Shown here piece by piece: positions 34,693-55,408 of a DNA stretch of 64,000 nucleotides. Numbering within the stretch: the stretch's first letter is position 1; the number at the start of each line of letters is the position of its first letter. The translations under genes were made by a program, and so were the position numbers. Source of the stretch: Pirellulales bacterium. GTDB lineage: Bacteria > Planctomycetota > Planctomycetia > Pirellulales > JAEUIK01. The stretch spans positions 62,001 through 126,000 of the forward strand of contig JAHBXR010000015.1 in the NCBI GenBank assembly GCA_019636335.1, in the 5' to 3' direction. The notes beneath the pieces were generated by a model. The model was not told the origin of the DNA, made no database searches, and was given only the letters and a program-made list of their open reading frames with translations.

Positions 34693-37600
34693 TCAGTTGC
34701 CGTTCGGCGGTAGTACCCTGCGTGAAGTAGGACTCGCCACGACCGGCGCCGTCGCGGGCGCGACCAGGTTCACCGGCGCCGCGTGGGGCGGCCTGGCCTC
34801 TCCCATGGCGTCTGGCACCGGCAAGGGGCGCGAGCCCGGCGCCGGCAGCAGCTCTTCTCCGCCGATACGGGGACCTTCAGCCGGCGCCGCGTTTCCCTGG
34901 GGAGCAGGGAAGTAGGGCACGGCGGGCACATTCTCGGGCACGGCGTTCGGCGAATTCGCTCTGCCGGCGGGAATGCTCTCGGCCGGCACCGGGATGCCCT
35001 CGGCTCCCGGATCCTGATCCGGATAGATCACCTGAGTCGTCGACATGCAGTGCTCGCAATCGCCGCGACGGCAGATCTGGCACTCGCCGTGAATACGCTC
35101 GACATCGGCCAGGCACCAGCTCATGCGCGACGATTCGATCTGCTTCATCCGCTCGGCGTCCTCGCCGTTGCGAATGACGTGCGGCGTCAGAATGATCAGC
35201 AGCTCGGTGCGCTGGTTCTGCTCGAAATCGTAGCGAAACAAGTGCCCGAGGATGGGAATCGACGACAGGTAGGGGACGCGCCGCGTGGTCGTCACGTGAT
35301 TGCGGAAGATCAACCCGCCGAGCACGACGGTCTGCCCGTCGGCGGCACTGATCGTCGTTTGGGCGGTTTGCGTGCGAATGCGGGGCGAAAGGATCGGATC
35401 GCCATCGGTGTTCACCGCGATGGGAATGCCATCGGCGATGCGTCCCAACTCCGAGCGCTCGGCGTCGACCTCCATCACCACGTTGCCGTCCGGGCTGATG
35501 CGCGGCGTGACCCCCAGGATGAGCCCGACGTTGACCAGCTCGATGTTGTTTACCTGGCCGACCTGGTTGATCGTGGTGCCGGCGACGCGCGGCACGCGCT
35601 CGCCCACCTGAATGAACGAGGGCTGGTTGTCGAGCGTCATGATCTGCGGTCGGCTCAAGACCTCGACGCGCTGGCACTGCTTCAGGGCGCGAATCAGAAT
35701 GTTGATGCTCTCGTTGCTGGCACTGAGCACGAGCCCGCCGAAGCCAAGCTCGGCGTTGGTGCGACCGACCGAGAAGCTCGACAAGGCCTGTCCGGCGAGG
35801 TTCTCGCGCGTCGACATCGACTGCGCGCTGCCGCTATTGCCCAGGTTCTGATTGTTGAAATTGAACCCGGGAATCAGCGTGGTCGAGGTCTGATTGGCCG
35901 TTGTGCCAATGTCCACACCTGGATTGCGGGTATCGGTGGTGCCCGTCGAGCCTGTGGTGGCTAGGTTGCCGACGATGCCACGATCGAAGAGCAACGAGTC
36001 TTGCAGGCCCAACTCCACACCGAACTCGTCGATGTTGTCGAGCCGCACCTCGGCGATCAGCACCTGGATCAGCACCTGCGGCGGCTGCGCGTCGAGCTGC
36101 TCGACCAGCGTGCGAATATCGTCGAAGTAGCGCGGCGTCGCGCTGATAATCAGGCTATTGCTGACCGGCTCGGGCACGACCACCACTTCACGTTCGATCT
36201 GCTCGAAGGGACTCGGCGTGCCGGGCACGGCAATCTGAACCATGCGTTCGCTGCGGAGGAACTCATTCACGGCCAGCGCCACGTCGATGGCCGGTGAATT
36301 CTTCAGCCGGAAAACCTGGCTCTTGCGATCGCTGACGTCACTCTCGTCGAGCCGCAGCAGGATCGCCTCGACCACCTGCAACAAGCCGGCCGAGCCGGTG
36401 GCGATGATCGAGTTCGTGCGCAGATCGACGCTGAATCGCAGCGGAGCGAGCGAACCTTCGTCGGTCGGCCCGGCCAGCTCGGGTCCCAGAGCTGTCGTCG
36501 CCTGCGGCCCCAGCAGGGTGCGCATCATCTCGACCAGGGCGGCGGCGTCGCCATTCACGATCTTGAAGACCTTGATCTGCGCCGTCGCGGCGGGCATGCC
36601 GTCGAGCTGTTCGATCAACGCGGCCAACAGTTCCATGCTGTCGGCGGGCGCCGATACGAGCAGCGTGTTCGTGTGCCCGTCGGGCGTGACGCGGACATCG
36701 GAGAGGACTCCCGACTCCAACATGCGCTGTCCTTGCGCATCGACCGTGAGGAATTGGAGGATGGACTGCTTTTGCTGTGCCGCCGGCGTGCCGGGGGCCG
36801 TGCCGCGCAGGGCGTTCTCGAGAATCGGGGCCATGTCGGTGGCCAGCGTGTTGCGCAGCTTGAAGACGCGCAGTTGGTTGACCACCCCGCTCTTGCCCGA
36901 GTCGAGCCGTTCGATCAACAGCTCCACCTCGGCCAGGTCGCGGGGCACCGCCTGCACGATCAGCGAGTTCGACGCGGCGTCTGCCACGATGACCACTTTC
37001 GCCCCCAGCCCCAGGCGGTTCGTGAAGAACTGCTGGATCGTCGTTTGCGTCGCCACCGCGGGGGCATACTTCAAACGAAAGACGCGCAACTGCGTTTCGG
37101 CATCGACGGGCTGATCGAGCTTCTCGACCAACTCGCGCATCACTCGCAAGGCCTCGCCCCAGCCGACCAGGAGAATGGCATTCGGCTTGACCAGCGAGAT
37201 CGACGTCACGCGGCCTTGTCGACCGGCGAGCAGATCGGTCTGCACCTGGGTCAGCACCGTGGCGATGCCCGCCGCGGGGGCATGGCGCAAGTGATAGACT
37301 TCGATCTCCGGCTCGGTCTCGGCACTGATGCGTTCGATTTCTTGAATGATCCGCACGAGCTCGTCGACCTCGCGCTCGTCGCCGCTGAGGATCAACACGT
37401 CGAGATCAGGAAGGACCTCGATGTCCACATTGCCGCCGAGCTGTCGCAGGCGATCCTGCTGGGCGGCGGCCTCGGCATCGCCCGTGGGAGCATCCGGCGG
37501 AGGAGACGCCTCGGCCGGCGCGGGAGACGCACCGGGCTGCAGTAGCAAGTTGGCAAAGGCCACCGCGCCCGAAGGATCGGCGGTCGTCGTCGAGGCTGCC

Positions 37601-38424
37601 CGGGCTGGATTCCTCTCGCGCGACGCGCCATCCGAGGGCGCCGGCAGCAGCCGCTCGCGATCGAGCTTTCCCTCGTAGGCATCGGTGGCACGCCGAACCT
37701 TGGTGAGATCCGCCTTGTCGAGCGGTATCACTCGCACCGACTTGCCCAACGGTTGGCGCGGGCTGTCGAGCACGGTGATGAGGCGCACCATGCGTTCGGC
37801 GACGGGAGCCGAGCCGCGCACCATGAGCTGATCGTGCGCGCGGTTCAAACCGAGTTCGATGCGCTCGCCGGTGCTCAAGATAATCATGTAACCCGGCAGC
37901 CCGGCAGCGACCTGCGCCATGGGCTGGATACGCCCCCGGAACATGTCGACCAGGATCGGCTCGAGCTGCGAGGCGCGCGCGCTGTGCAGTTGAACGAAGC
38001 GCACCGTCGGGTCGCCGGCCACGTCGACACGCGGTGGCACGTGAATCGCCGGCGCGTCCGTATCGGGCGGAGGGGGCGAAAGAGTGGCTGTCGGCAGGGA
38101 CGCCGCTGGAGCCGTCTTCGGCTGATCGAGCGCGGTGACCAGCCCGGCCACGATCTGGTGGGCTTCGGCCGGTCCGCGCACGAGGAGTTGATTCGAGGCC
38201 GTGTCGACGGCGATTTCGGCGCCGGCCAGTCCCGCCACCAGCTTGCGTGCCAGGGGCTCGACGTCGGCGACCGAGGCGGCCCGCAGCCGGTAGGCCTTCA
38301 TTTCGCCATCGGCGGCGTGCGCGCGGCCGGCCTGACAGCATGCCAGCAACATCGCCAGCGCCGCTACCGCCAGCGTGCGCGTGGGCCGTCGAATTGCGTA
38401 TTCGTCTAAAGCTTTGAAAGACAC
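34693..38424 (-). CDS. gspD: Type II secretion secretin GspD with extended N-domain array
   Basis: The protein has about 1243 residues, nearly twice the usual GspD length. After a signal peptide (TRTLAVAALAMLLACCQAG) there are about seven or eight N1/NolW-like modules (repeated D-ASN-L-V-G / LIEQLD patterns). The secretin core follows (VLSRPQIMTLDNQPSFIQVG, GQTVVLGGLI, VPYLSSIPILGHLFR, LLIILTPHVI; the last near residue 1046). A Cys cluster near residues 1100-1125 contains GECQICRRGDCEHC. It forms the outer-membrane channel. GTG at 38424 gives a clean signal peptide; TTG at 38565 would place the start 22 bases after the upstream gene but adds 47 implausible residues, so the start is uncertain. 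Confidence 0.92.
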   Translation of the reverse strand: MSFKALDEYAIRRPTRTLAVAALAMLLACCQAGRAHAADGEMKAYRLRAASVADVEPLARKLVAGLAGAEIAVDTASNQLLVRGPAEAHQIVAGLVTALDQPKTAPAASLPTATLSPPPPDTDAPAIHVPPRVDVAGDPTVRFVQLHSARASQLEPILVDMFRGRIQPMAQVAAGLPGYMIILSTGERIELGLNRAHDQLMVRGSAPVAERMVRLITVLDSPRQPLGKSVRVIPLDKADLTKVRRATDAYEGKLDRERLLPAPSDGASRERNPARAASTTTADPSGAVAFANLLLQPGASPAPAEASPPPDAPTGDAEAAAQQDRLRQLGGNVDIEVLPDLDVLILSGDEREVDELVRIIQEIERISAETEPEIEVYHLRHAPAAGIATVLTQVQTDLLAGRQGRVTSISLVKPNAILLVGWGEALRVMRELVEKLDQPVDAETQLRVFRLKYAPAVATQTTIQQFFTNRLGLGAKVVIVADAASNSLIVQAVPRDLAEVELLIERLDSGKSGVVNQLRVFKLRNTLATDMAPILENALRGTAPGTPAAQQKQSILQFLTVDAQGQRMLESGVLSDVRVTPDGHTNTLLVSAPADSMELLAALIEQLDGMPAATAQIKVFKIVNGDAAALVEMMRTLLGPQATTALGPELAGPTDEGSLAPLRFSVDLRTNSIIATGSAGLLQVVEAILLRLDESDVSDRKSQVFRLKNSPAIDVALAVNEFLRSERMVQIAVPGTPSPFEQIEREVVVVPEPVSNSLIISATPRYFDDIRTLVEQLDAQPPQVLIQVLIAEVRLDNIDEFGVELGLQDSLLFDRGIVGNLATTGSTGTTDTRNPGVDIGTTANQTSTTLIPGFNFNNQNLGNSGSAQSMSTRENLAGQALSSFSVGRTNAELGFGGLVLSASNESINILIRALKQCQRVEVLSRPQIMTLDNQPSFIQVGERVPRVAGTTINQVGQVNNIELVNVGLILGVTPRISPDGNVVMEVDAERSELGRIADGIPIAVNTDGDPILSPRIRTQTAQTTISAADGQTVVLGGLIFRNHVTTTRRVPYLSSIPILGHLFRYDFEQNQRTELLIILTPHVIRNGEDAERMKQIESSRMSWCLADVERIHGECQICRRGDCEHCMSTTQVIYPDQDPGAEGIPVPAESIPAGRANSPNAVPENVPAVPYFPAPQGNAAPAEGPRIGGEELLPAPGSRPLPVPDAMGEARPPHAAPVNLVAPATAPVVASPTSRRVLPPNGN

Positions 38425-38587
38425 CGGTTCTGTCGCTTGGCAGTGTTCCCCCCTGCGGCGACTTGTTCGTAGGCGCACGCTGCGCGCTTCGGCGCATCGC
38501 TTGCCCGGCTCAAAGATCGGTTGTCCCGCCTGCCGGCTACAGCCTTTCTGAGGAGATTCCGCCAACTGGCGAAAAATACTGGGCCGT

Positions 38588-39475
38588 TTAGAGCTCGGGG
38601 GGCAAAGCCGTTGCCTGGCTAAGGTTTTCCCCCAACGTGATCAGCCAGCGTTCGTTGTCCGAATCGATCACGACGTCGAGCGCGTCGATCTCGGCCACGC
38701 GGCCCCGAAACTGCCCCACTTGAAAGGGCTGGCCGATCCCCAGCTTCAAGATCTCGCCCGTCGTGCGAATGGTGAACCACGCCTCGAGCTGTCCGCTCAC
38801 TTCGAGGATGGCCGTGAGGAAGGCGAAGTCCGATTCGTCGTAGGCCCGGGCGCCACCTTCGCCAAACAGGTTTCGCTCGACGATGGCGCGATACTCGACC
38901 AGGTTCTCCGCGGCCAGACGATTCGACGTGCGCCCGCTGAGACGATCCTTGCGTTCCCCCTCGGGCAGCACCAGGGCCTCGATCGACATCGAGAGCTCGA
39001 GCCGCTGCGAACGCGGAATGGGGGTGATCGAAAGTCGTTGCACCTGGTGCAAGTGGTCCGCGCGATAAAAGTTGTAGAGGAAGCTGGTAAGCTGCTCGAG
39101 CGAGCCACGGCCGCGGACGGTGAAGGGGAGCTTTTGGTAAACGTCCTTCTTGCCGACCGTCTCGCCCGAGTCCACGTTGGGCTGCTCGAAGCCCGCGACA
39201 CGCACGAGCTCGAGCAACCAGTTCTGATAGAGCGAACGAGCCAACTCCAGATCGGTCGGCAACGACTGCTGCTGCCAGGCCGTCAACTGCTTGCCGGCGG
39301 CTCGGGCCAGGCGCAGTTGCCCTTCTTTCTTCTCGATATCTTTACGCAATCGCTCGGCACGGGCACGGCGCTCGTCGAGCGGGCCTTGCAACATGGCCTG
39401 GAACAGCCAGTTTCCCAGGTAGGCCACGAGCATGCCGCCGACGATGATCGCTAGGATGCGTTCGCGCTTTTTCAT
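38588..39475 (-). CDS. GspM/PilO-like inner-membrane protein with GspC-like tail
   Basis: The 295-residue protein has one N-terminal helix (LAIIVGGMLVAYLGNWLFQA) and a coiled coil (ERRARAERLRKDIEKKEGQ). A PilO-type ferredoxin-like domain follows (LPFTVRGRGSLEQLTSFLYN). The tail, from about residue 195, begins with VERNLFGEG and continues with a small beta domain that resembles the GspC homology region. No separate gspC is present, so a fused M/C function is possible. It would link the cytoplasmic-membrane platform to the secretin. The start ATG overlaps the stop of the preceding gene (ATGA). Confidence 0.75.
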   Translation of the reverse strand: MKKRERILAIIVGGMLVAYLGNWLFQAMLQGPLDERRARAERLRKDIEKKEGQLRLARAAGKQLTAWQQQSLPTDLELARSLYQNWLLELVRVAGFEQPNVDSGETVGKKDVYQKLPFTVRGRGSLEQLTSFLYNFYRADHLHQVQRLSITPIPRSQRLELSMSIEALVLPEGERKDRLSGRTSNRLAAENLVEYRAIVERNLFGEGGARAYDESDFAFLTAILEVSGQLEAWFTIRTTGEILKLGIGQPFQVGQFRGRVAEIDALDVVIDSDNERWLITLGENLSQATALPPEL

Positions 39476-41130
39476 GGCCGGCCCCCCGTCGACGTGTTGG
39501 TCGAAGTGGCCGTTTCCGCCGCGGCGTTCTGCGTCGCCGCGGAAGATGCCCCGGCGATGCTGGCTGCCGAGGTGGAATCACTGGCCGGAGCGGCTGGTTC
39601 GGTCGTCGTCGCCGGGGCGGGCACGGTGGGACCGGCCACCGGGGCCGGCGCCGTGCGGTATTCCTCGCGATCGCGCCGTGCCACGGCCAGCGACGATTCG
39701 AATTGCCAGGTGTAGGTGCGCTCTTGAATGGTCGCCTGCACGCGTTTGCTGCGCACCTCGTGGTGCTTGTCGCGGAGATTGCTTTCCATGCGGCCGACGA
39801 TCGAAGGATCGCGCACGAGCCCCTGCATCTCGACGGTGCCCCCCTTGCTCGAGGCCCGGGCCATCGTGAGTCGCAGCAGCACGGCGTCGCGGGCACTGGG
39901 GAATCGCAACGACAGATCGCGCAACTCGTCGAGCCAGACGATATCGTTATCGGCCCAAAGCTTGATTTCCTCGACGGCGGCCCGCTTCGCATCGGCGCGA
40001 CGCACCAACTCATCGAGCTTCTTGGACTCGGCGGCCAGCTTGTCGTTCAGCTCGTCCGCGGCCGAGAACTTGCCCCAGGCCACATAGCCCCCGGCGAAGA
40101 CGATCGCCGCGATGACGCTGGCCGCCAGGCCGACGAGCAAGCGCCGATCGAGCGGCTGCGGCATCTTGCGAGGATCGAGCAAGTCGATGGCCGGCTTGTT
40201 GCCATGCGCCTCGTCGAGCAGCATGCCCACGAGCGCCCCCAGACGACCCGTGCTCGCGGGCGCGTGCCTGGCCAGTTCGCCCGTCGTGGGGAGCTCGGCC
40301 AGCGGATCGAACGCCTGCACGGGCAGCTTGAGTTCGTGCTCCATGCGCTGCATCGTCTCGACGTGCTCGTGCGGCCGGCCGCAGAGATAGATCGCCTCGA
40401 CGGGGCTTCCGCCCGGTTGATTGGCCACGGCGACCAGCGTGCGACGGATTTCGGCCAGCAGGCCGGTGACGTCTCCGTGCTCACCTTGTGGCAGCCGCAC
40501 CGAACGAGAGACCAGCACGCGCGTGCCGACCAGCACGAGCAGTTCGGCCGTGGTCGGCGCCAGCTCGGCGATCAGCACCACTTGCTCGGCCGAGGGCATC
40601 AAGCGACGGAAGCCCGAGGCCAGGGCGTAGGGACGCACGAGCATGCGTTCGGGGGTCCAGCCGGCCGCGGAGCAGGCCTCTTGCAACTCGTGCATTTGAT
40701 CGGCCGACAAGGCCACGGCATCGACCTGTCGGGGCACGGTCGGGTCGTCGGACAGCGGCACGAAGTCGAGCACGCTGTCTTCGCCGACAAAGCCCGCCTC
40801 GCGCATCGCCTGCAATCGCACCAGCTCGGGCAGATCGGCATCGGGCACGGGGGGCACGACGAGCTGTCGCAGCTCGACTCGATTGCGGCCAACCCCCAAC
40901 AGCAGCTTGGGGCGGGCCATGCGCTGCCGGCCCAGGGTCTCGCGCCACTGCGCCGCGAGGATCTCTCGCGACGGATGCTTCAAGGAAATCTCGCCACTCT
41001 CCGTGGGAACCGCCTCGGGGGCCAGCGGGAAGGAGCCGGCTTGCTCGAGCGCGACGCGGCGACCGCGCACCTGCGCCAAGATATAGCGCGCTTCGGCGAT
41101 GTCCCATTCGATGGCCAGCAGACGCGGCAT
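39472..41130 (-). CDS. GspL-like protein (PilM actin-like ATPase fold fused to PilN)
   Basis: The 552-residue protein begins MPRLLAIEWD and has an actin-like PilM fold to about residue 320 (VLIAELAPTTAELLVL, EAIYLCGRPHEHVE). One membrane helix (LVGLAASVIAAIVFAGGYVAW) precedes a PilN-like coiled coil and ferredoxin-like domain, and then an Ala/Thr/Pro-rich tail. This is the GspL architecture, which recruits the GspE ATPase to the membrane platform. It is 112 bases downstream of gspK and overlaps the GspM-like gene by four bases. Confidence 0.85.
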   Translation of the reverse strand: MPRLLAIEWDIAEARYILAQVRGRRVALEQAGSFPLAPEAVPTESGEISLKHPSREILAAQWRETLGRQRMARPKLLLGVGRNRVELRQLVVPPVPDADLPELVRLQAMREAGFVGEDSVLDFVPLSDDPTVPRQVDAVALSADQMHELQEACSAAGWTPERMLVRPYALASGFRRLMPSAEQVVLIAELAPTTAELLVLVGTRVLVSRSVRLPQGEHGDVTGLLAEIRRTLVAVANQPGGSPVEAIYLCGRPHEHVETMQRMEHELKLPVQAFDPLAELPTTGELARHAPASTGRLGALVGMLLDEAHGNKPAIDLLDPRKMPQPLDRRLLVGLAASVIAAIVFAGGYVAWGKFSAADELNDKLAAESKKLDELVRRADAKRAAVEEIKLWADNDIVWLDELRDLSLRFPSARDAVLLRLTMARASSKGGTVEMQGLVRDPSIVGRMESNLRDKHHEVRSKRVQATIQERTYTWQFESSLAVARRDREEYRTAPAPVAGPTVPAPATTTEPAAPASDSTSAASIAGASSAATQNAAAETATSTNTSTGGRP

Positions 41131-42826: not shown

Positions 42827-44226
42827 CGCGCACCTCCCGGAGCCGGTGCGTTCGGACGGAAGAACGACGGAATCGAATTCCGCCGCGTCGGCGCGGGAGG
42901 CGTCGGAGGCGCCATCGTCGAAGGCAGGGGAGACGCTGGGGCCGCCGGCAGCGGCGCGTTGAGCTCGTCGGGACTGCTCAGCTCTGGATAGGGATTTTCC
43001 TCGCGACGCGGACTCGCCAGCGGCAGATAGACCACCAATCGATAGTCGGGCAAGTCTTCTGCCGACGTGCCATTAGCGGCGTTGCCACCCGCGAATGCAC
43101 CGGCAGTTTCTGGCTCCCGCGAGCTCGAGCGATCGGCCGCTGTTTGCCGCGTCGCCGACGTGTCGGCAGGGTCGGCGCGCCGTTGGCCCGCGCGGCGCGG
43201 GCGTCGTGCCTCGTCGGCCGGCTCGGCGAGCCAGAAGGCAATGTCGACGGCCATCGGGAGACCGCCGTCGGACGCGCTATCCCACGAACTGTACCAGGTG
43301 CTGCCATCGAAGTATCGAAACGCGACGCGCTCCACCTCGGGGGTCAGCGTTTCTGCGAGATCTTCCCACGCAACGTCACTGGGTGGACGGTACTCGTTCG
43401 CGCGCGCTGCAGAAGAAGTTGTCATGGGAGATGACGCCGAGAGGCCGGCAGCGGGCGTACCGTAGTCGCTCGTCGACTCGGGTTCGGCTGCTGTCGCCGC
43501 GTTGGAACGGAGCGGCTCTTCGCCCGACGATTCGTGCAGCCAGGGCTGTTCGCGGCGCACGAGCCCGGTCTGTGCGATCCCGGCTTCGGCATTCACCGTG
43601 GCTGGCGAGAATTCGTTTTGCTGCGCGAGCATCCGATCGGGGTTAGTCGAGTCGTAGCAGAAGTAGCTCACCTTTCGCAGGGCGCCTGCCGAGTCACTGT
43701 TGGAAGCCCCCGTGACGAAGGCACTCGACTCGGCCGAGGGGGCCTCGCTGCCGATCACCAAGGCCGCCAGCGACTCTTGCCCCCCCCCGGCGCGGACGCA
43801 AACATCGAGCCGATCGCTCGTGCCCGCCAGTCGCAGGGTGCGAGCCACAGGGGTCTCGGTCGAATCTCGCAACGGGGAGAGCACGGTCGTGCGATACAGC
43901 TCGGCCGGGGAGAGTGGATCGGCGGCCGACTCGGCGGAGGGAAGAAAATCGCTCGGCAGCGCGAGCGGTTGGTCTCCTCCGGCGGATCTGGCCGCGGACT
44001 CGACGACCGCTCGCCGCAGATCGCGCGAGATCTGCCGCAGCAACGAACGTGCGAGCTGCGCCTCTTCGACGTGCGTGCGGCCCGAATCGAACGACCGCAT
44101 GAAAAGCGACAGCGCACTAAACAGACCGGCCAGCAGCGCCGTCGAGAGGGCCAGCGCCAGCAACACCTCGAGGATCGAGAAACCCGAGCGGCAGCGCGCG
44201 CCAGGGATAAGAGTCGGGCCCGTCAT
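42823..44226 (-). CDS. Pseudopilin GspJ-like protein, enlarged
   Basis: The 467-residue protein begins with a prepilin leader and the motif GFSILEVLLALALSTALLAG, with Gly at -1 and Glu at +5. A LRQISRDLRRAV helix and RVAFRYFDGSTWYSSWDSAS region fit GspJ. It is more than twice the usual GspJ length because of Ser/Ala/Pro-rich insertions and a Pro-rich C-terminus. It starts three bases after the gspI stop and overlaps gspK by four bases, so it is inside the operon. Confidence 0.82.
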   Translation of the reverse strand: MTGPTLIPGARCRSGFSILEVLLALALSTALLAGLFSALSLFMRSFDSGRTHVEEAQLARSLLRQISRDLRRAVVESAARSAGGDQPLALPSDFLPSAESAADPLSPAELYRTTVLSPLRDSTETPVARTLRLAGTSDRLDVCVRAGGGQESLAALVIGSEAPSAESSAFVTGASNSDSAGALRKVSYFCYDSTNPDRMLAQQNEFSPATVNAEAGIAQTGLVRREQPWLHESSGEEPLRSNAATAAEPESTSDYGTPAAGLSASSPMTTSSAARANEYRPPSDVAWEDLAETLTPEVERVAFRYFDGSTWYSSWDSASDGGLPMAVDIAFWLAEPADEARRPRRAGQRRADPADTSATRQTAADRSSSREPETAGAFAGGNAANGTSAEDLPDYRLVVYLPLASPRREENPYPELSSPDELNAPLPAAPASPLPSTMAPPTPPAPTRRNSIPSFFRPNAPAPGGAR

Positions 44227-45386: not shown

Positions 45387-45860
45387 TTAACGACTGGCCG
45401 TTTGCGTACCATTTGCCTCGGGATTCCAGTTGCCGATGTCGTCTTCGGTGCCATCTTCACCGTCGGGACCCATCGACCAGATGTCGGGGAAATCGCTGGT
45501 GTTGTGCGTGGGGGGATAGGCGTACTGATAGTCGTGCCCCCAGGGATCCTGCGGAATGCTGGAGTCGAGGTAAGGACCTTTCCACTGCTCGGGATTCTCC
45601 ATCTCGGCCGGTTCCTCGTGCAGCGCGACGAGGCCCTGCTCGGTCGTCGGATAACCGTTCATGTCGAGCGCGAACATCTCGAGCGGCGATTTGAACAAAC
45701 CGATCTGGCTCTTGGCGGCGTTGATGTTCGCCTTCTTCTGCGTCCCCATGAAACGCGGCGCCACCAGGCCCAGCAGGATCACGAGGATCGCCATGACCAG
45801 GAGCAGTTCCATCAACGTAAAACCTTGACGCGCCACCGGGCGGCGAGTTCTGCGTGACAT
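45387..45860 (-). CDS. gspG: Major pseudopilin GspG
   Basis: The 157-residue protein has the canonical leader and cleavage motif QGFTLMELLLVMAILVILLG (Gly at -1, Glu at +5). The GspG-specific block GYPTTEQGLVALHEEP and the PWGHDYQYAYPP loop follow, and the C-terminus PDGEDGTEDDIGNW is the calcium-binding end of GspG. I chose the ATG at 45860 because GGGAGAAGAAG is directly upstream; the longer ORF is not coding there. Confidence 0.95.
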   Translation of the reverse strand: MSRRTRRPVARQGFTLMELLLVMAILVILLGLVAPRFMGTQKKANINAAKSQIGLFKSPLEMFALDMNGYPTTEQGLVALHEEPAEMENPEQWKGPYLDSSIPQDPWGHDYQYAYPPTHNTSDFPDIWSMGPDGEDGTEDDIGNWNPEANGTQTASR

Positions 45861-45943
45861 GTTCTTCTTCTCCCTAATACAGGTTGCAGGATGTTGGGAA
45901 AGACGCGACGGTCTCTCCGCGGGGATGACTCGAATGGTTGCGT

Positions 45944-47155
45944 TTAACCGATCGTGGCACTCATCTGAAACACGGGCAGCAGCAGTGCAATCACGACGCA
46001 CAAAATGACACTGGCCATCACGAGCAGCATCGCCGGCTCGATCAGGCGCACCATGAGATCGAGCTGGCGGCTCGTCCGGCGGTCCAACCCGTCGGCGATG
46101 TTCACCAGCACGTTCTCGAGATTGTTCGACTCCTCGGCGACGCTGATCATCTCGACCACCGTCTGGGGAAACAGCCCGCACGAGGCCAACGGCCCCGCCA
46201 GCGTCTGTCCCGAGGAAATGTTCTCGCCCGCTTGTTGGATGGCCTGGGCCATGACGCGATTGCCGGTCGAATCGCTGCTGATCTCGAGCGACTTGAGGAT
46301 CGGCACGCCATTGTGCAGCAGCGTGCCCAGCACGCGGCAGAAGCGCGACACCGCCAGGTTCAAGAAGATCGGCCCGGCCACGGGGACCTTGATCTTCAAG
46401 CGATCGCGCACGAGGCGCCCCTTCTCGGTCTTGAGCTGCTGGCGGATCCAAAGGACCACGCCGATGGCCAGGGCGACGAGCAAGAGCCCGTAGCGACCGA
46501 TGAAATCGCTCGTGCCCAGGAGGGCGGTCGTCATGAAGGGCAACTCGCCGCGTTCTTCCAAGCGGGCGAACAATTCGGCGAACTTCGGCACGAAGAAGAC
46601 GATCAGCACCGTTACCGCGGACGATCCGGCAATCGCTAACAGCGCGGGATACGTGAGCGCGCCGACGACGCGGCTCTTGAGTTCTTCCTGCTGTTCGATG
46701 AAGTCGGCCGTGCGCTGCAGCACGTCTTCGAGAAAGCCCCCTTCGCCGCCGGCGCGGACCATGCTCACGGTCAACTCGTTGAAGACCTGCGGATGCCGCG
46801 CAAAGGCCGCATCGAGCGTCGAGCCTTCGGAGACCTGCGTCCGCACGTCCCCCATCACTTCGGTCAGCAGCGGGTTCGACGACTGCCTGGCCAGAATCTC
46901 GAGCGACCGCATCAGGGGCACGCCGCTCTTCATCAAGTCGGCCATCTGCGCGAGCGTCGCCGCGAGGGCCTGTTGCTTGACCTTCTTCGGTTTCTGCAAC
47001 GCCGCCAAGCGCGAGGTCTTCTCCTGCACGAGCCGCAACGGGAACAGCGCGCGATCGCCCAGCAGCACGAGCGCCTCGCGCTGCGTGGCAGCGGAGATCG
47101 TGCCGGCCACTTCCTGGCCTTGGGCGTTGCGGGCGGTGTAAGCGAAGTCGGGCAT
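45944..47155 (-). CDS. gspF: Type II secretion inner-membrane platform protein GspF
   Basis: The 403-residue protein starts MPDFAYTARNAQGQEVAG and has the duplicated GspF domain: QMADLMKSGVPLMRSLEILA in the first half and RVLGTLLHNGVPILKSLEIS in the second. Three hydrophobic segments are present, including VTVLIVFFVPKFAELF and the C-terminal PAMLLVMASVILCVVIALLL. It is the multispanning platform protein that contacts GspE. The ATG at 47155 matches the usual family start. Confidence 0.95.
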   Translation of the reverse strand: MPDFAYTARNAQGQEVAGTISAATQREALVLLGDRALFPLRLVQEKTSRLAALQKPKKVKQQALAATLAQMADLMKSGVPLMRSLEILARQSSNPLLTEVMGDVRTQVSEGSTLDAAFARHPQVFNELTVSMVRAGGEGGFLEDVLQRTADFIEQQEELKSRVVGALTYPALLAIAGSSAVTVLIVFFVPKFAELFARLEERGELPFMTTALLGTSDFIGRYGLLLVALAIGVVLWIRQQLKTEKGRLVRDRLKIKVPVAGPIFLNLAVSRFCRVLGTLLHNGVPILKSLEISSDSTGNRVMAQAIQQAGENISSGQTLAGPLASCGLFPQTVVEMISVAEESNNLENVLVNIADGLDRRTSRQLDLMVRLIEPAMLLVMASVILCVVIALLLPVFQMSATIG

Positions 47156-47220
47156 CGGCAGCAGAAACAAGGGTGGTGTCTGAAGAAAGATTCCGTCGAA
47201 TCAGGCTTCCATCAAGTTCA

Positions 47221-47337: not shown

Positions 47338-49035
47338 TCAGTCGGCCTTCGACACGCGCATGACCTCTTCCACGGTCGTCCGGCCCCACAGCACTTTGCG
47401 CCAGCCATCCTGACGCAGGGTCCGCATGCCGGCGGCCATGGCGGCCTGCTTGACGCGGAACGAGCTGGCACGCTCGGTCGCCAGGTTGCGAATTTCTTCG
47501 TTGGCGACGAGCAATTCGTACAGGCCGGCGCGCCCGCGATACCCCGTGCCGCGGCATTCGCGGCACCCCGCGGCACGATAGATCGGCGCGTCGGACGCGA
47601 GACACTCCTCGAGCGGAAAATCGGCCGGCACGTCGTCCTCCGTCGGCGAGAACGCTTCGCGGCAAGCCGGGCACAAGGTTCGCACCAGGCGCTGCGCCAT
47701 CACGCCCTCGACCGTGCTGGCCACGAGGAACGGTTCGACGCCGATATCGCACAAGCGCATGAACGCGCCGGCGGCATCGTTCGTGTGCAACGTGCTGAAG
47801 ACCATGTGACCGGTGAGAGACGCCTGCACGGCGATCTCCGCCGTCTCGACGTCGCGAATTTCGCCCACCAGCACCACATCGGGATCGTGACGCAAGATGC
47901 TCCGCAGCGCCGCGGCAAAGGTCAGCCCGATCTTGGCGTGTACCTGAATCTGGCTGATGCCGGGCAATTGGTACTCGACCGGGTCCTCGGTCGTGATGAT
48001 CTTCGTGTCTTCGCTCTTGATCTCGTTGAGCGCGCTGTAGAGCGTGGTCGTCTTACCGGAGCCGGTCGGACCGGTCACCAGCAGAATGCCGTGCGGCAAG
48101 GTGATCAGACGCTGGAAATCGGCGTAGATATCCTCGTCCATGCCGATGCCGCGCAGGTCGAACTTCATCTTGTCCTTGTCCAGGACACGCATGACGATCC
48201 CTTCGCCATGCAGCATGGGGATGATCGACACGCGGACATCGACCTCGCGTCCCGCCACCTTCAGCTTGATGCGGCCATCCTGCGGCAAGCGTTTCTCGGC
48301 GATGTTCATGTGGGCCATGATCTTCAGACGGCTGACGATCGCGGCCTGGAACTGGTTGATCTCCGGGGGGGTCGGTTGCGGCTGCAGCACGCCGTCGATG
48401 CGGTAGCGAATCTTCATGCCAGTGGCATGCGCCTCGATGTGAATATCGCTCGTCCGCGATTCGATCGCCTCGACGAGAATCTCATTCACCAGGCGCACGA
48501 CCGAGGCCTCTTGCGCCATCTCGGCCGCTTCGGAGCCGTCGAGCTCGAGCTCGTCGAGCACCTCGACCGTGCTCGACTGGTCCTGCCGCTGCGCGATCAG
48601 ATTGTCGATCGTCTCCGAACCGACGCCGAAGTTCGCCTTGATCAGCTTGCCGATCTCGTCGCTGACGGAGAGCACCGGCGTGACGCTCAAACCGGTGGCC
48701 GCCGCCACGGCGTCCAGCGCGTAGAGATCGAAGGGATCGCTGGTGGCCACGACGAGCGAGCCGTTCGTCTGGCTGAGGGGAAACACCGCGTGGCGGTGGA
48801 TGAGCTTGGCCGGCAGGCTGGCCAGCAGCGTGCGATCGACCTCGAAATTGCTCAGATCGATGAACTCGAGCCCCAGTCCGTCCGCCAGCACCCGGAGCAC
48901 TTCTTCCTCGCGAGCAAACCCCATCTGCACGGCCAACTGGTCGAGGCGCGCGCCATCGCCGGCGTGCGAGCGCGCCACTTCGAGCTGTTGGGCGTCGAGA
49001 AGGCCCTTCTCGACGAGCAGTTGGCCGGCATCCAT
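47338..49035 (-). CDS. gspE: Type II secretion ATPase GspE
   Basis: The 565-residue protein has the N1/N2 docking domain, the [20 protein letters not shown] block, Walker [11 protein letters not shown] (about residue 320), the Asp box [13 protein letters not shown], Walker [10 protein letters not shown], the STLHTND His box, and a C-terminal zinc-binding tetracysteine (CPAC near 455 and CREC near 490). It powers pseudopilus assembly and is the first gene of the operon. The ATG at 49035 opens a normal family N-terminus. Confidence 0.96.
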
Positions 49036-49499
49036 GGCGTCGCCTCAAGGTGTTCTGGCCACTCGGAAAGTGGATCCCGAGCGTCGGCAATTCCAGCGGC
49101 AGGAGTCGTGCGACATCCGTTTCGCGACTTGCCACTAGTGGTTCAGTCCACTACGCGCCGGCCCGATCTCGTCCGGCGATTCGCGTCTGGCACTCTGTCG
49201 AGGCACGCAGGCTGGGGTGGAGCGTGCCGCATCTCCGGGGGTGGGACGACTGTGGGTCGTCTCGTTGGGGTGGGGTCAGCAGGCGAATAACCGCCCGTCG
49301 ACATCGCATGCAGCCTAGTTGATCCGTTCCGGCCGAGTCAAGCCAGAACTTGATGAAAAGGGCGTTTGCCGGCCACCCGCCCGGGCCCGCCGGCATCGAC
49401 TTATATCTTTAGCTCGTAAATGTTTCGGCGCCGTGCTGGCAACATTTGATGGCGAGAAGTTCGCCACCCCTCGTCCTGGCTGGGTATAATCTCGGTACT
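49036..49499. other. Divergent intergenic region upstream of gspE
   Basis: The 464 bases between gspE and the EF-hand gene must contain the promoter of the secretion operon, but I could not identify a convincing -35/-10 pair on the minus strand. I see no gene or RNA here. A -10 box for the rightward EF-hand gene is listed separately. Confidence 0.5.
49485..49490 (+). promoter_or_regulatory. Consensus -10 box of EF-hand gene
   Basis: A perfect TATAAT ends nine bases before the ATG at 49500. Transcription would start at or within a few bases of the start codon, so the mRNA may be leaderless. The -35 region is weak. Confidence 0.45.
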
Positions 49500-50354
49500 A
49501 TGCCAAAACCGACTCGATTCTCGCCTCTGCAATTCTGGTTCCCGGCCGTCTCGGTGGGCGCCCTGACGATTGTTCTGTGGGGTGCTGCCGAGGGCGCCGC
49601 GCAAGAGCCGGGCCAGCCCACGCGCGGCAGCGCCGCGACGCGTGGCGCCGGGCGAGCGCCGCAGGTTTCGGACGGCATCTCGGGCAAGGTGCTCCGCTAT
49701 GCGAGCAAGCTCGTCGCCAAGCATGACGCCGATCTCGACGGCAGACTGCAAGAGCCCGAGTGGCGGCGCATGTCGGGCACGCCGCGGCTGGCCGATCTCG
49801 ACGGCGATGGGATCATCACCGTCCATGAACTGGCCCAGCGGGTCGCCAGCTACAGCCGCCAACGCACGTTGCGCCTGATGCCGGCCCGCGAGGCCGAAGA
49901 ACTCCCCGTGGCCAGCGCCGAGGAACCTGCCGCCGAAGACAACGAGGCCACGGTCGCCCTGGAAGGTCCGATGGCGAACCCTGCTCCCGAGGCCGCCGCA
50001 GCCGGCAATCCCGCGCCGGGCGGCAATGCCGACAACACCGACCAGAACCCCGATCGTCGTCGGACGAAGAAGTCGAAGCAGTTTTTCGTCCCTACCTCGC
50101 GACTGCCGAAGGGGGTCGCCAAGTGGTTCAGCGAACGCGACGCCAATGGCGACGGACAGGTGAGCATGGTCGAGTATTCGTCGAAGTGGTCGCAAGCCGA
50201 GGCACTCGAATTCGCCCGCTACGACAAGAACGGCGACGGCATTATCACGCCCGACGAAGCAACGACGGGCACGCCCAAGCGGACCAAGAACGAGCCCGCC
50301 CCCACGGCCTCGGCCGATGCGGGGAATCTACCCGCGGGCGCCACCGCGCCATAG
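49500..50354 (+). CDS. Exported protein with four EF-hand loops
   Basis: The 284-residue protein has a signal or anchor segment (FWFPAVSVGALTIVLWGAAE) and two EF-hand pairs. The loops DADLDGRLQEPE and DLDGDGIITVHE come first; after an Ala/Pro/Asn-rich linker come DANGDGQVSMVE and DKNGDGIITPDE. Three of the four have full acidic ligand spacing. Exported calcium-binding proteins of this kind are common in planctomycetes. It lies between the secretion operon and the giant N-domain repeat protein and is transcribed towards the latter. Its specific role is unknown. Confidence 0.85.
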   Translation: MPKPTRFSPLQFWFPAVSVGALTIVLWGAAEGAAQEPGQPTRGSAATRGAGRAPQVSDGISGKVLRYASKLVAKHDADLDGRLQEPEWRRMSGTPRLADLDGDGIITVHELAQRVASYSRQRTLRLMPAREAEELPVASAEEPAAEDNEATVALEGPMANPAPEAAAAGNPAPGGNADNTDQNPDRRRTKKSKQFFVPTSRLPKGVAKWFSERDANGDGQVSMVEYSSKWSQAEALEFARYDKNGDGIITPDEATTGTPKRTKNEPAPTASADAGNLPAGATAP

Positions 50355-50405: not shown

Positions 50406-53400
50406 CTATCTTGAAGAGCGCGGCACGCGTCGCGGCACGCGTCGCGGACGCGGCCGGCTGCCTCCCCCGCCGCCAAAGCCACTTTGGCCGCTGAGCCGGC
50501 CGATCGCCTCTTCCACGGCCAGGATATTCGTCTTCTTCAGCGGCACCACGCGCACCGTGCGGGCCGGATCGGCCGCCGCCTCGTCGAGCGAGTGTACCAA
50601 TTGCTCGACCTCGACCAGCAGCGGGCCGGGCGCCAGCACGATGATCGAATTGGTCAGTTGATCCACGGCCAAGGTCATCAGCGGGCCCGAGCTCGAAGCC
50701 CCCAGTTGCTGCAACACGCTCGCCAGCTCGCGCGGCACGCCGCTAGGAATCGGCAGCTTCGCCCCGCCCGACGTGAGCTGCGTCTGGTAGACATCGCGCA
50801 GCACGTCTTCGATCTCTTCGGCCCGGGCGTTGTGGATCTGGATCTGCTTGGGCTTCGTGGCCACGAGCGTATCGGGCACGTCGGCCGAATCGAGTACCTC
50901 GAGCAGCGCCTCGATCGCGCGGAGATCGGCCTGTCCGGCCTGCACGATCAGGGCGTTGAGCCGCGTGTCGGGCACGATCGTGACGATGCCGCTGCCCCGT
51001 CCGCCGAAAAATCCGCCGCGGAAGAGCTTTTGCAACGTGTCGGCCATGTCGGCGGCGTTGGCGCTCTTCAGGTTGAAGACGGTGAACTCGCGTCCCGGGC
51101 GCCCTCCACCACTTTGCGCCAGGTTGCGCAACAGCGCCTCGAATTGATCGAGCGCCTCGAGATCGTCGGAGCTGATCGTAATGCGGTCGTTGCTCGGGGC
51201 GACAATAATCGGCGGGGGCGTCGGTTCAACCAGTTCGCTCGGCGGCTGGATCGATTCTGCTTCTTCCTCGTCCGCCGCAGGCTCGGCGGCCACTTCGCTG
51301 GTCGCGGGATCGGCCTCGGCAAGCTGGCAGACCCCATCGAGCGGTTCACCATCGATCCCCGACGTGTCCGGCGAATCGGGGGCGGGTGCTGGCGGAGCGG
51401 GGGGCTGCGTTTCGCGGCTTTCACGCAGCGTGGGGGCCACGGCCGACGGGGTAACCACGCGGATCGGATTCTTGCGCAACTGCGGCCACACGCGCGACAA
51501 CTCGGCCATCGCCGAGTCGATCTCTTGTCGTCCCATGCGAATGACGCGTAGCTTGCCCCCCCCCGAGCTGCCGGCGGGAATCTCGACGAGCAGGGGTTCG
51601 CCCATCTTGGCCAACAGGCTGCGAATCTCTTTCAATTGCGCGGCGCTGCCGCGGACCACGAGCTGCCCCGTGGCGGCGTCCGAATCGATCTTGGGCGGAT
51701 CTTCGCCTCCAAATCGATTGCCGTCGTCGTCGAACAAACGCTCGATCGCCATCTGTGCCGTAAAGGGATCGACCACCGTCAGCGGAAAGACTTCGAGCTC
51801 CTGCGGGGCGGTCTGCATTTGCTCGATGGTCTGGCGAATGATGCGTTGCTGGTCGGGACGCGCCAGCGCTACCAGGTGCTTGCTCCGCCGCGATGCGCTC
51901 AGCTTCACCTCGGGCGACTTCACGAACAGCGGCGTCAGGGCTTCGAGCACCGTATACGATTCGGCCGTGCCCAAGGGATGCACTTCGAGCTGCACGGTAG
52001 CCTCGGGCGTGCCGGTGCCTTCGATCTCTTCGATCACCGAGCGGATCTTTTCCTGCTGCGACGGCGGCGCCCAGGCAATCAGCTTCTGCGTGGTGGGGTC
52101 GAGCGAGAAGCGAATCTCGGGACGCGTGGCGTAAAGCGTCGTGAGCGTGCTGTAGACGTTCGTGGCCAGCGAGATCTGCAAGGGATAGACCTTCACCTCG
52201 GGCACTTCTCCCGCGGCGGCCGGATGATCCATTTCGGCCACGGCCGCGGCGAGTCGTTCGTGCTCGGCGGGGAGCGCCGTGGCGACGATCCCCCCCTGCC
52301 GCGTATCGATGGCGATCCGCGCCGTCGGCACGAGCGCCTGCATCGTCGAGAGTGCCGCCGTCGGATCGGCCGCTTCGAGTCGGTAGACCTTGGCGATCGG
52401 CTTCTGGTCTTCCGTATTGCCGGCGTTCAATTGTTCGATCGCTTCGCGAATCGCGGCGTGCTCGTCGGCGGTCCCCCAGGCCAGCACGCTGTGCGACCTG
52501 GCATCGCTCAAGACGCGGGCGTCTTTGACCACGCTCTGCAGCATGACCACCAGCGAGCTCGGATCGGCGTCGCCAATGGGATAGACCGAAAGCGTACGCT
52601 GCAACTCGGCGCTCGGCTGCTCTTCCATCTGGGCGATGGCCCGCTCGAGCGCCGCATGGTCCTCGGGCGTGCCCCAGGCCACCACGCTGCCCGTGTTCGC
52701 GTCGATCGCCACGCGCGCCGTCGGCACGAGCGTTTGCAGCACGTAGAGCGACGTGGCTCCGTTGGCGCGGCGCAGCGGATAGACCACCACGGTGGGCGTT
52801 TTCTCGGGAGGCAGCTTACTGTCCATCTGCTCGACGGCGGCCCGGATCGTCTCGTGATCGGCGGGGGTCGCCCACGCCGCCAGGCTCTGATTCGTGCGAT
52901 CGGCCGAGAGCCGCGCATTCGGCACCACGGCCTGCAGCATCGTGGCCAGTGGCACGGGATCCGCCTTTTGAACCGGGTAGACGACGATCCGCGGCCGTTC
53001 GCCTTCAGCCGGCAGATCGGCATCCATCGATTCGATCGTCGCCCGCGCTGTGGCCTGATCGCGCGGCTTGGCGACCACGATAATCTGTCGAGTCTCCGGC
53101 TCGACGATGACCTGTGCCTCGGGCAACAAGGTTCGCAGAACGGGCAGCGCCGACTGAGGATTGAAACGCTCGAGTCGGTAGGTGGTCATCACCGCCTGCT
53201 CCTCGGGGGGGAGCTCGCGGTCGAGTTGCGAGATGATCGTGGCGATCGTGGCGTGCTGGTCGGGCTGGGCCCAGATCGCGATCTCGCCCGTCGTCGCGTC
53301 GGGAATCACGCGAATGCCCGGCAATTGCTCGCCGAGCGTCGACAGGGCCGTCGTCACCTTGCGGTGATTCGCCAGCGACACCTTGTGAGTCTGCAGTTCA

Positions 53401-55172
53401 TCCTCGGTCTCTTTCGGCGTGGCCTTTTCGACCTGCTCGACGGTCGCGCGGACCGTTTCCTGATCGGCGGGCGTGGCGATCACGCTCAGACGCTTGGCCT
53501 TCTGATCGAACGTGGCTTGCGCTTTCGGGACTACTTTCGCCAGCAACGTCGTTAGCTCGGCCACGTCGTCGAACGTCAGTTGATAGACCTGCAACTGCGG
53601 CACCTGCTCGGCCGGCACATCGACGTCGAGCCGGGCGATCAGCTCTTTGATCCGCTCGTGATCGGTGGGCGTCGCAAAGGCCACCACGCGCCCCGCACTG
53701 CCACCAGCCGAAATGCGCGCCTCGGGCACGAGCGCCGCGAGCGCCGCCACCATCGTCGCCGGTTCGGCCTTGTGCAGGGTGTACACCTCGAGCGTGCGGT
53801 CGCGGTCGGCCGAGTCCGTATCCAACTGGCTCACGGCGCCCGCGATCAACTCCTGATCTCCCGGCGTGGCCCACGCGGCCAGGCTTCCCGTCTTCGGATC
53901 GATCGCCAGGCGCGCACTCGGCGTGACCTGCATGAGAAAATCGAGGATGCTGCGCGCATTGCCCGCCCGCAGCGGATAGACCTTGAGCTCCGGCTTCTTG
54001 TCGGCCGGGGCCTCCTTGCGCATCTCGTCCATCGCCAGTTGAATGCCCGCGTGCTGCGTGGGCGTGGCAAACACGGCGATCTGTCCCAGTCGCTGGTCGA
54101 GGGCGGCCTTGGCGTCGGGCATGAGCGCCTTGATCATCTCGAGCGCCACGGCGGCGTCGATCGCGTCGAGCGGATATGCCACGAGCACCGACTTCTCGGG
54201 CTCGCCTGGCTTGGCCGAAGGCACCGCACTCGAGGGGAGAGGCATCGATTCAATCACCGCCGCGATCGAGCGCATCTTGCCGGCCGTATCGGTCACCAGG
54301 ATCTGCCGCGTTGCCGTTAATGGGGTCGCTTTGCCTTGCGGCCCCAGCAGCGGCGTGATTTCGGCCGTCACCTGCGCGGGATCGCGCGTCTCGACCGGAA
54401 ACAGCACGCTCACGATCTCGAACTTGCCACGGTCGGTCAGTTCTTCGAGCGTGACTCGCGGCACGAGATCGCCCGGCACCCCCTCGGTCACGTTGAGCAA
54501 CATGAGCATGTTGTCGCGGCGAATGAGCGTGTACCCCTTGGTCAGCAGCACGCCGTTGAGCAGGTCGATGGCGTCGGCCACCGTGTACTCGCGCGAGTCG
54601 GTGTAGTTGAACGAACCGGGGGGAGGCGCATCGAGCACCAGCGATAGCCCCGCCTGATCGGCAAACCAGCTCAGCACGTCGGTCCAGGGCTGAAAGCGGA
54701 AGCTGAAGCGCAGCTTCTTTTCTGTCGGCGCTTCGACAGCGGGGCGCAATTTGCCCGCCGCGATCATGCGCTGCCAGGCGGCCCGCTGGTCCTCGGTCAG
54801 GACGGCGGCCAGTTGAGTTTCGACGGCCGCGATAATCTCGGGACGCTTCGACTCCGGCGCGTCGCGCAGCGATTCGGCACGTTCGGCCACGAGCTTGCGA
54901 ATCTTGGTCGACTGCGCCTCACTCAGGCCGAGTTGCTGCGCAATCGCGGGGTCGATCAGTGCCACGTAGCTGGGACCTTCGGCCGTGGGGGCCGGCGCTG
55001 CCGGAGTGGCTGCCGGCGCAGGCGCCGTAGGGGGCGTGGGCTCAGTGGCCGCTGGTGTCGAGGGCTCCTGCGCGCGCAGCACGACCGGGTTGCCAGCGAC
55101 GAGCAGACAGAGCAGCAAACCCAGCAGCGCGATCAGAGATCCCGTGCGAAACGGGAAGGCAAGGCATGACAC
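50406..55172 (-). CDS. Giant exported protein of tandem secretin-N (NolW-like) repeats, no secretin channel
   Basis: The roughly 1588-residue protein has a signal peptide (GSLIALLGLLLCLLVAG), a Pro/Ala linker, a helical segment, and an STN/N0-like domain (FQPWTDVLSWFADQAGLSLV). About fourteen tandem repeats of 65-70 residues then follow the pattern VYPL…A…L..LVP.A…D…..AWATP.DH..I…..QLD. After an acidic Pro-rich linker come two longer N-type domains (FTVFNLKSANAADMADTLQK; IVTIVPDTRLNALIVQAG) and a Gly/Arg-rich end. Secretin core motifs are absent. I chose GTG at 55172, with GGGAG nine bases upstream; ATG at 55250 is the alternative. It may form a periplasmic scaffold around the secretin encoded nearby, but that is inference. 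Confidence 0.8.
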   Translation of the reverse strand: MSCLAFPFRTGSLIALLGLLLCLLVAGNPVVLRAQEPSTPAATEPTPPTAPAPAATPAAPAPTAEGPSYVALIDPAIAQQLGLSEAQSTKIRKLVAERAESLRDAPESKRPEIIAAVETQLAAVLTEDQRAAWQRMIAAGKLRPAVEAPTEKKLRFSFRFQPWTDVLSWFADQAGLSLVLDAPPPGSFNYTDSREYTVADAIDLLNGVLLTKGYTLIRRDNMLMLLNVTEGVPGDLVPRVTLEELTDRGKFEIVSVLFPVETRDPAQVTAEITPLLGPQGKATPLTATRQILVTDTAGKMRSIAAVIESMPLPSSAVPSAKPGEPEKSVLVAYPLDAIDAAVALEMIKALMPDAKAALDQRLGQIAVFATPTQHAGIQLAMDEMRKEAPADKKPELKVYPLRAGNARSILDFLMQVTPSARLAIDPKTGSLAAWATPGDQELIAGAVSQLDTDSADRDRTLEVYTLHKAEPATMVAALAALVPEARISAGGSAGRVVAFATPTDHERIKELIARLDVDVPAEQVPQLQVYQLTFDDVAELTTLLAKVVPKAQATFDQKAKRLSVIATPADQETVRATVEQVEKATPKETEDELQTHKVSLANHRKVTTALSTLGEQLPGIRVIPDATTGEIAIWAQPDQHATIATIISQLDRELPPEEQAVMTTYRLERFNPQSALPVLRTLLPEAQVIVEPETRQIIVVAKPRDQATARATIESMDADLPAEGERPRIVVYPVQKADPVPLATMLQAVVPNARLSADRTNQSLAAWATPADHETIRAAVEQMDSKLPPEKTPTVVVYPLRRANGATSLYVLQTLVPTARVAIDANTGSVVAWGTPEDHAALERAIAQMEEQPSAELQRTLSVYPIGDADPSSLVVMLQSVVKDARVLSDARSHSVLAWGTADEHAAIREAIEQLNAGNTEDQKPIAKVYRLEAADPTAALSTMQALVPTARIAIDTRQGGIVATALPAEHERLAAAVAEMDHPAAAGEVPEVKVYPLQISLATNVYSTLTTLYATRPEIRFSLDPTTQKLIAWAPPSQQEKIRSVIEEIEGTGTPEATVQLEVHPLGTAESYTVLEALTPLFVKSPEVKLSASRRSKHLVALARPDQQRIIRQTIEQMQTAPQELEVFPLTVVDPFTAQMAIERLFDDDGNRFGGEDPPKIDSDAATGQLVVRGSAAQLKEIRSLLAKMGEPLLVEIPAGSSGGGKLRVIRMGRQEIDSAMAELSRVWPQLRKNPIRVVTPSAVAPTLRESRETQPPAPPAPAPDSPDTSGIDGEPLDGVCQLAEADPATSEVAAEPAADEEEAESIQPPSELVEPTPPPIIVAPSNDRITISSDDLEALDQFEALLRNLAQSGGGRPGREFTVFNLKSANAADMADTLQKLFRGGFFGGRGSGIVTIVPDTRLNALIVQAGQADLRAIEALLEVLDSADVPDTLVATKPKQIQIHNARAEEIEDVLRDVYQTQLTSGGAKLPIPSGVPRELASVLQQLGASSSGPLMTLAVDQLTNSIIVLAPGPLLVEVEQLVHSLDEAAADPARTVRVVPLKKTNILAVEEAIGRLSGQSGFGGGGGSRPRPRRVPRRVPRSSR

Positions 55173-55408
55173 GATCCAGGCTCCCAGGGGGTGGGATGTC
55201 GGCAGGCGGGCGTAGCGAGTACGGGCACCACCAGGGGTACCACCCCTCATGGTAGTCGCCGGGCACGCCCCATGCCAGCGCGAAGTGGTACGAAAAGCCC
55301 CTGGTTTCAGGCTCTTTCTAGCTCTCGAGTTAATCTTGCCAGCAGCATTGCGGTAATCAAAGAGAGGGATTTGCCGAAGTCCACCTGAACGGTACCCGGA
55401 GATTCGCG

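Follow-up and report, generated by a model that had tools for sequence, protein, structure and literature searches.

Introduction

In the textbook picture a secretin is a channel made of one protein and has few N-rings; in the solved structures it is the N-domains that form these rings. Proteins with ring-building motifs and a related fold, such as SctJ, FliF and SpoIIIAG, form rings without an outer-membrane barrel; they have few such domains and are membrane-anchored. The secretin of the type II secretion system (T2SS), GspD (PulD, XcpQ, EpsD), has a barrel, an N0-N1 pair and three N-type modules. GspC binds the N0 domain in other type II systems (PMC3169554). With six N-rings and a length of 35 nm, the type IV pilus secretin PilQ of Thermus thermophilus reaches across most of a wide periplasm (PMC5745081), and the periplasm of planctomycetes can be greatly enlarged (PMC5394234).

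Here we describe a gene in a 64,000-nucleotide stretch of DNA from a Pirellulales bacterium (GCA_019636335.1, contig JAHBXR010000015.1, positions 62,001 to 126,000; the window). Its product shares the N0-N1 pair, the N-type module fold and the gsp operon linkage with GspD; unlike GspD, it has no barrel and about 17 modules (up to 68 in relatives), and it is separate from the barrel subunit. The extra N-rings and wide periplasm of Thermus PilQ recall our proposal for this protein, whereas PilQ is a single polypeptide with a barrel and six rings and belongs to a pilus system. The protein may also be likened to SctJ, FliF and SpoIIIAG, from which it differs in its many domains and in not being of the membrane-anchored kind.

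Results

A barrel-less protein built of secretin N-type modules

The open reading frame extends to an ATG at position 55250, which lengthens the product from the 1588 residues of the first-pass annotation, counted from an in-frame GTG, to 1614 residues (Table 1). The leader, LIALLGLLLCLLVAGNPVVLRAQ, is followed by a Pro/Ala-rich stretch, and the protein is predicted to be exported to the periplasm, as that annotation had held. A small helical region comes next, which had no match in the Pfam scan and occurs once or twice in the aligned relatives; we take it to resemble motifs of the LTxxQ/Spy type. The N0 domain stands ahead of the module array, where an N0-like domain had been noted before.

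Table 1. Features of the barrel-less gene, the gsp genes of the window, and related loci. Residue numbers count from the ATG; positions without a locus prefix are those of the window.
Feature	Coordinates	Strand	Basis or remark
Barrel-less N-module protein, 1614 aa (1588 aa from GTG at 55172)	50406..55250	-	ORF list, Pfam
Signal-peptide-like leader, residues ~27-60	55071..55172	-	judged from sequence
Small helical region, residues ~93-165	54756..54974	-	alignment of relatives
N0 domain, GspD type, residues ~177-262	54465..54722	-	structure match to 4jtm; PF21305 sub-threshold
N1 domain, residues ~278-338	54237..54419	-	repeat HMM, AlphaFold2 model
Twelve compact N-type modules, residues 355-1148, spacing ~66 aa	51807..54188	-	repeat HMM, model, PDB comparison
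Longer N-type module, residues 1151-1219	51594..51800	-	repeat HMM, C-terminal model
N-type module interrupted by disordered Pro/Ala-rich linker, residues ~1234-1380	51111..51551	-	C-terminal model
Longer N-type module, residues 1388-1456, best Pfam Secretin_N stretch	50883..51089	-	Pfam, repeat HMM, model
Longer N-type module with insertion, residues ~1466-1560	50571..50855	-	repeat HMM, model
Terminal half-module (beta1-alpha1), residues ~1564-1592	50475..50561	-	kept in long and short relatives
EF-hand protein gene	49446..50354	+	Pfam; between barrel-less gene and gspE, position conserved
GspE ATPase	47338..49035	-	Pfam
GspF	45944..47170	-	sequence, relatives' loci
GspG-type major pseudopilin	45387..45950	-	sequence, relatives' loci
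GspJ-like minor pseudopilin	42823-44226	-	Pfam
GspK minor pseudopilin	41243-42826	-	Pfam
PilM/GspL-like platform protein	39472..41130	-	PF11104 E=0.0006, sub-threshold
Operon protein, possibly GspM/PilO-like, candidate N0 partner	38588..39475	-	T2SSM/PilO sub-threshold, one relative
Barrel-bearing GspD, 1290-aa ORF	34693..38565	-	Pfam and profile matches
Single-chain giant secretin, 5073 aa	L157:307-15528		frame includes some non-coding front
Single-chain giant secretin, 4999 aa	L159:2889-17888		
Single-chain giant secretin, 3564 aa	L160:1958-12652		
Single-chain giant secretin, 4605 aa	L163:1718-15535		
DNA duplication span in a giant	L134:6940-8452		
DNA duplication span in a giant	L135:7489-9922		
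DNA duplication span in a giant	L138:10134-12159		

An HMM built from the protein's own repeats detected 16 modules: N1 (residues 284-336, 2e-6) and 15 others scoring between 1e-16 and 2e-29. It places the twelve compact modules at residues 356-1148, and assigns three longer modules to residues 1151-1218, 1388-1456 and 1487-1558; the linker-split module and the terminal half-module are not among these 16 and were recognized from the C-terminal model and by comparison. The array of tandem repeats seen in the first-pass annotation is thus real, and its estimate of about 14 becomes about 17 complete N-type modules, to which N0 and the half-module are added, with short linkers between modules. A Gly/Arg-rich tail follows the half-module at the C-terminal end.

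Secretin_N (PF03958) is the sole Pfam family in the protein, matching in 14 stretches (total E=1.1e-106) with a score of 349.5 bits, where the gathering threshold is 28.2, which places it in that family. The Pfam scan gave no match to the secretin barrel (PF00263), in keeping with the earlier reading that a channel domain is absent, and the GspD equivalog TIGR02517 reaches 228 bits, below its cut-off of 351, at N-domain positions only. Profile matches to TAL-effector and dynein were judged to be artefacts of repeats or composition.

An AlphaFold2 model of residues 170-549, computed from 38 sequences, has a pLDDT of 90.4 and an overall pTM of 0.57, and DSSP assigns a beta-alpha-beta-beta-alpha topology to each module; the model of the C-terminal part (pTM 0.34) was used for secondary structure only. 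The best Foldseek matches among solved structures are the T2SS secretins PulD, XcpQ and GspD, with PulD (6hcg) as the best overall chain (Z 13.3). The N0 domain superimposes on that of Escherichia coli GspD (4jtm) with Z 11.3 and an rmsd of 2.4 Å over 80 residues, and the modules superimpose on the Vibrio cholerae T2SS secretin (9k8v; Z 10.1, 1.6 Å, 59 residues) and on PilQ (6ve2; Z 9.5, 1.8 Å, 59 residues). The repeats therefore match the N-domain folds of GspD and PilQ, and not the different fold that the first-pass annotation had named as grounds for doubt. Support from sequence profiles is weaker than that from structure: N0-N1 aligns in register with N0-N1 of XcpQ at E 0.056, a longer profile of the protein reaches 2e-7 against XcpQ, and gspD_N0 (PF21305) stays sub-threshold, at 0.16 in this protein and 0.00038 in a relative. 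By the structure match and this weak profile match, the protein has an N0-N1 pair as in GspD; the pair has 39 invariant columns among 11 relatives, and the C-terminal end is conserved among relatives as well. Taken together, the Pfam matches, repeat HMM, structure model and PDB comparison establish that the repeats are secretin N-domains, as had been proposed.

The gene adjoins gsp genes and accompanies a long GspD

The genes from gspE to gspD (49035 down to 34693) lie downstream of the barrel-less gene on the same strand. An EF-hand gene on the opposite strand lies between it and gspE, so the two are probably not co-transcribed here. The order of barrel-less gene, EF-hand gene and gspE-F-G-H-I-J recurs at loci of other families (L029, L031, L032, L041 and L045), and in a further one (L043) the homologue and the EF-hand gene occur with gspE-F. 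A contiguous run from the homologue continues to GspD at L135/L136, while in another order of the same class (L155/L156) the homologue directly precedes gspE and the run ends with GspD. Within the operon, the family of the protein at 38588-39475 was considered as a source of the GspC HR domain, which would bind N0; PDB comparison and profile search did not find this domain there, the family having no PDB match and one relative falling below the T2SSM/PilO cut-off.

The proposition that the whole family adjoins gsp genes was rejected on account of distant paralogues lying away from them. These are barrel-less N0-N1 proteins of about 890 and 1055 residues (L166:7567-10239 and L167:7059-10226); the genome that holds them also carries a gsp-linked copy, and two such extra paralogues are found in some genomes.

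The loci of a scan of named genomes, 80 in all, are planctomycetal by title, one being titled only 'bacterium'; they include Aeoliella straminimaris as well as Blastopirellula marina DSM 3645, whose homologue (L090) has 1140 residues. Co-occurrence was scored in 157 genomes of the order with a completeness of 90% or more. Of these, the N0-N1 profile and the long GspD each match 100; both are present in 98, one alone in four and neither in 55, the genomes being related and so not independent observations. The N0-N1 protein stands alone in G015 and G143, and the copy in G143 adjoins gspE-F-G (L151); the long GspD stands alone in G128 and G159. Three families (f11, f12 and f13) each contain genomes with both proteins and genomes with neither. 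The source genome has one copy of the gene and one GspD of T2SS type, and other secretins are also present. Synteny in several families and the co-occurrence bear out the suggested association with the T2SS secretin: the gene adjoins gsp genes and occurs in only two of the 157 genomes without a long GspD, so it is not common apart from the operon.

Partner GspDs, fused forms and single-chain giants

The GspD of the window has seven or eight N-type modules and a secretin barrel, and a domain profile search found no N0 in it. Among the GspDs of the order that were examined at the N-terminus, nearly all likewise begin with N1-type modules soon after the leader and have no N0, the exceptions being the second GspD of G004 (L142) and L141. 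In the other order, the GspD of L155/L156 has its own N0 next to a barrel-less copy. A rule that GspD always lacks N0 was accordingly rejected on L155/L156 and L142, and the L155/L156 case means that a strict division of labour is not general.

The L141 protein (L141:4089-6764, genome G085) joins, within 891 residues, N0-N1 of the barrel-less family (145.7 bits), an N-module and a barrel, and is encoded in a gsp operon; an N0-N1 profile search of this genome found no separate barrel-less copy. In planctomycete genomes outside the class, single-chain secretins (L157, L159, L160 and L163) carry N0 followed by 31-40 detected modules, like the barrel-less family, and, unlike it, a C-terminal barrel on the same chain. 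Further genomes have frames of 3100-4900 residues that carry the N0-N1 match. Of all the evidence, the fused and single-chain forms speak most strongly for regarding the barrel-less protein as one half of a secretin.

Module number and its evolution

Between 3 and 68 modules (median 6) were detected in 76 complete barrel-less frames, with spacing quartiles of 64-68 residues; short homologues have from about 5, and expanded forms have 15-68, as against the 16 detected in the protein of the window. The largest have 68 modules in 5352 residues (L133), 50 in 4168 (L134) and 47 in 3749 (L135), with both ends as in the window's protein and no barrel. Head-to-tail DNA duplications of 804-822 bp, each of four modules and 79-91% identical, occur in the giants L134, L135 and L138, indicating that length is still changing. 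No DNA-level tandem repeats were found among the modules of the window's gene, as these have diverged. In a quick N0-N1 tree, whose rooting is unsure and in which six 'short' rows within the expanded group are contig-cut genes, the expanded forms cluster with a support of 94 and the single-chain giants fall outside. In alignment, the terminal half-module corresponds to the front half of the linker-split module of GspD, which suggests that the gene may derive from a complete secretin that was cut at this linker.

Discussion

We consider it probable (roughly 0.6) that the T2SS secretin is split and elongated here, and that this protein is its N-module, detached and without a barrel. Its N0-N1 end would most likely meet the inner-membrane platform, as N0 of an ordinary GspD does, and its N-type modules would stack as rings into a tube. 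The conserved C-terminal end may then dock beneath the first N-ring of the GspD that bears the barrel, a polarity in which the two proteins together would make one conduit from platform to outer membrane, presumably serving secretion. Module number, which tandem duplication alters, would set the length of this conduit, and that length may be fitted to the enlarged periplasm of planctomycetes. The first-pass annotation had proposed a spacer, ruler or adaptor. Its picture of a linear chain is conjectural, such domains forming rings in solved secretins. The idea of a spacer or adaptor was largely right; since nearly all partner GspDs of the order have no N0 and the same parts are fused elsewhere, a detached secretin half fits better than an accessory ruler.

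The main rival, which we regard as unlikely, is a flexible tether or scaffold: a T2SS-linked chain of N-domains that forms no rings and, outside the conduit, joins the secretin to the inner membrane or tolerates a variable periplasm width. Such a chain would explain the extreme and variable module number more easily than a split secretin does; the short linkers between modules also favour it, and the low pTM of the multi-domain model leaves module arrangement open. It does not explain the fusions to a barrel, however, and in the single-chain forms an array of this kind lies between N0 and barrel, the ring-forming place in solved secretins; the retention of N0-N1 as a GspD-like pair also argues against it. 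The GspDs of L155/L156 and L142 with their own N0, and the distant paralogues away from gsp genes, complicate the reading as a split secretin. The negative search for a GspC HR domain also counts against it; moreover, a stack of 68 rings would reach a great length, and envelope width offers no obvious reason for the large differences among close relatives.

Those same paralogues (L166, L167), and the other secretins of the source genome, could instead point to a separate secretin-derived envelope protein that works elsewhere than in the T2SS, for instance as a structural layer or together with a different secretin; we hold this to be quite improbable, given that the orthologues adjoin gsp genes and track the T2SS GspD in 153 of 157 genomes. 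Least credible of all is a truncated secretin paralogue, decaying or functionless, with repeats expanding by drift. Truncation would leave just such a half-module as aligns to GspD, and some giants carry recent tandem duplications, yet the very long frames are free of stops, N0-N1 and the C-terminal end are conserved, and the protein is absent together with GspD.

The domains themselves are of a known kind. As far as can be told, neither their separation from the barrel nor the extent of their expansion has been described: searches of the open-access literature turned up no account of a planctomycete secretin that is split or giant, subscription journals lying mostly outside the search, in line with the earlier remark that no protein with such a role was known. 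More tentatively, and at somewhat less than even odds, the reading as a split secretin may extend to a two-part planctomycete T2SS secretin with a tandem-repeat periplasmic tube of evolvable length, from tens to perhaps more than 150 nm, and adjusted to a periplasm that is wide or invaginated. A split secretin, N-modules numbering up to 68, or single chains of 5000 residues would extend the presumed reach of such channels; if true, a two-part secretin with a tube of tens to more than 150 nm would be the longest known secretin conduit.
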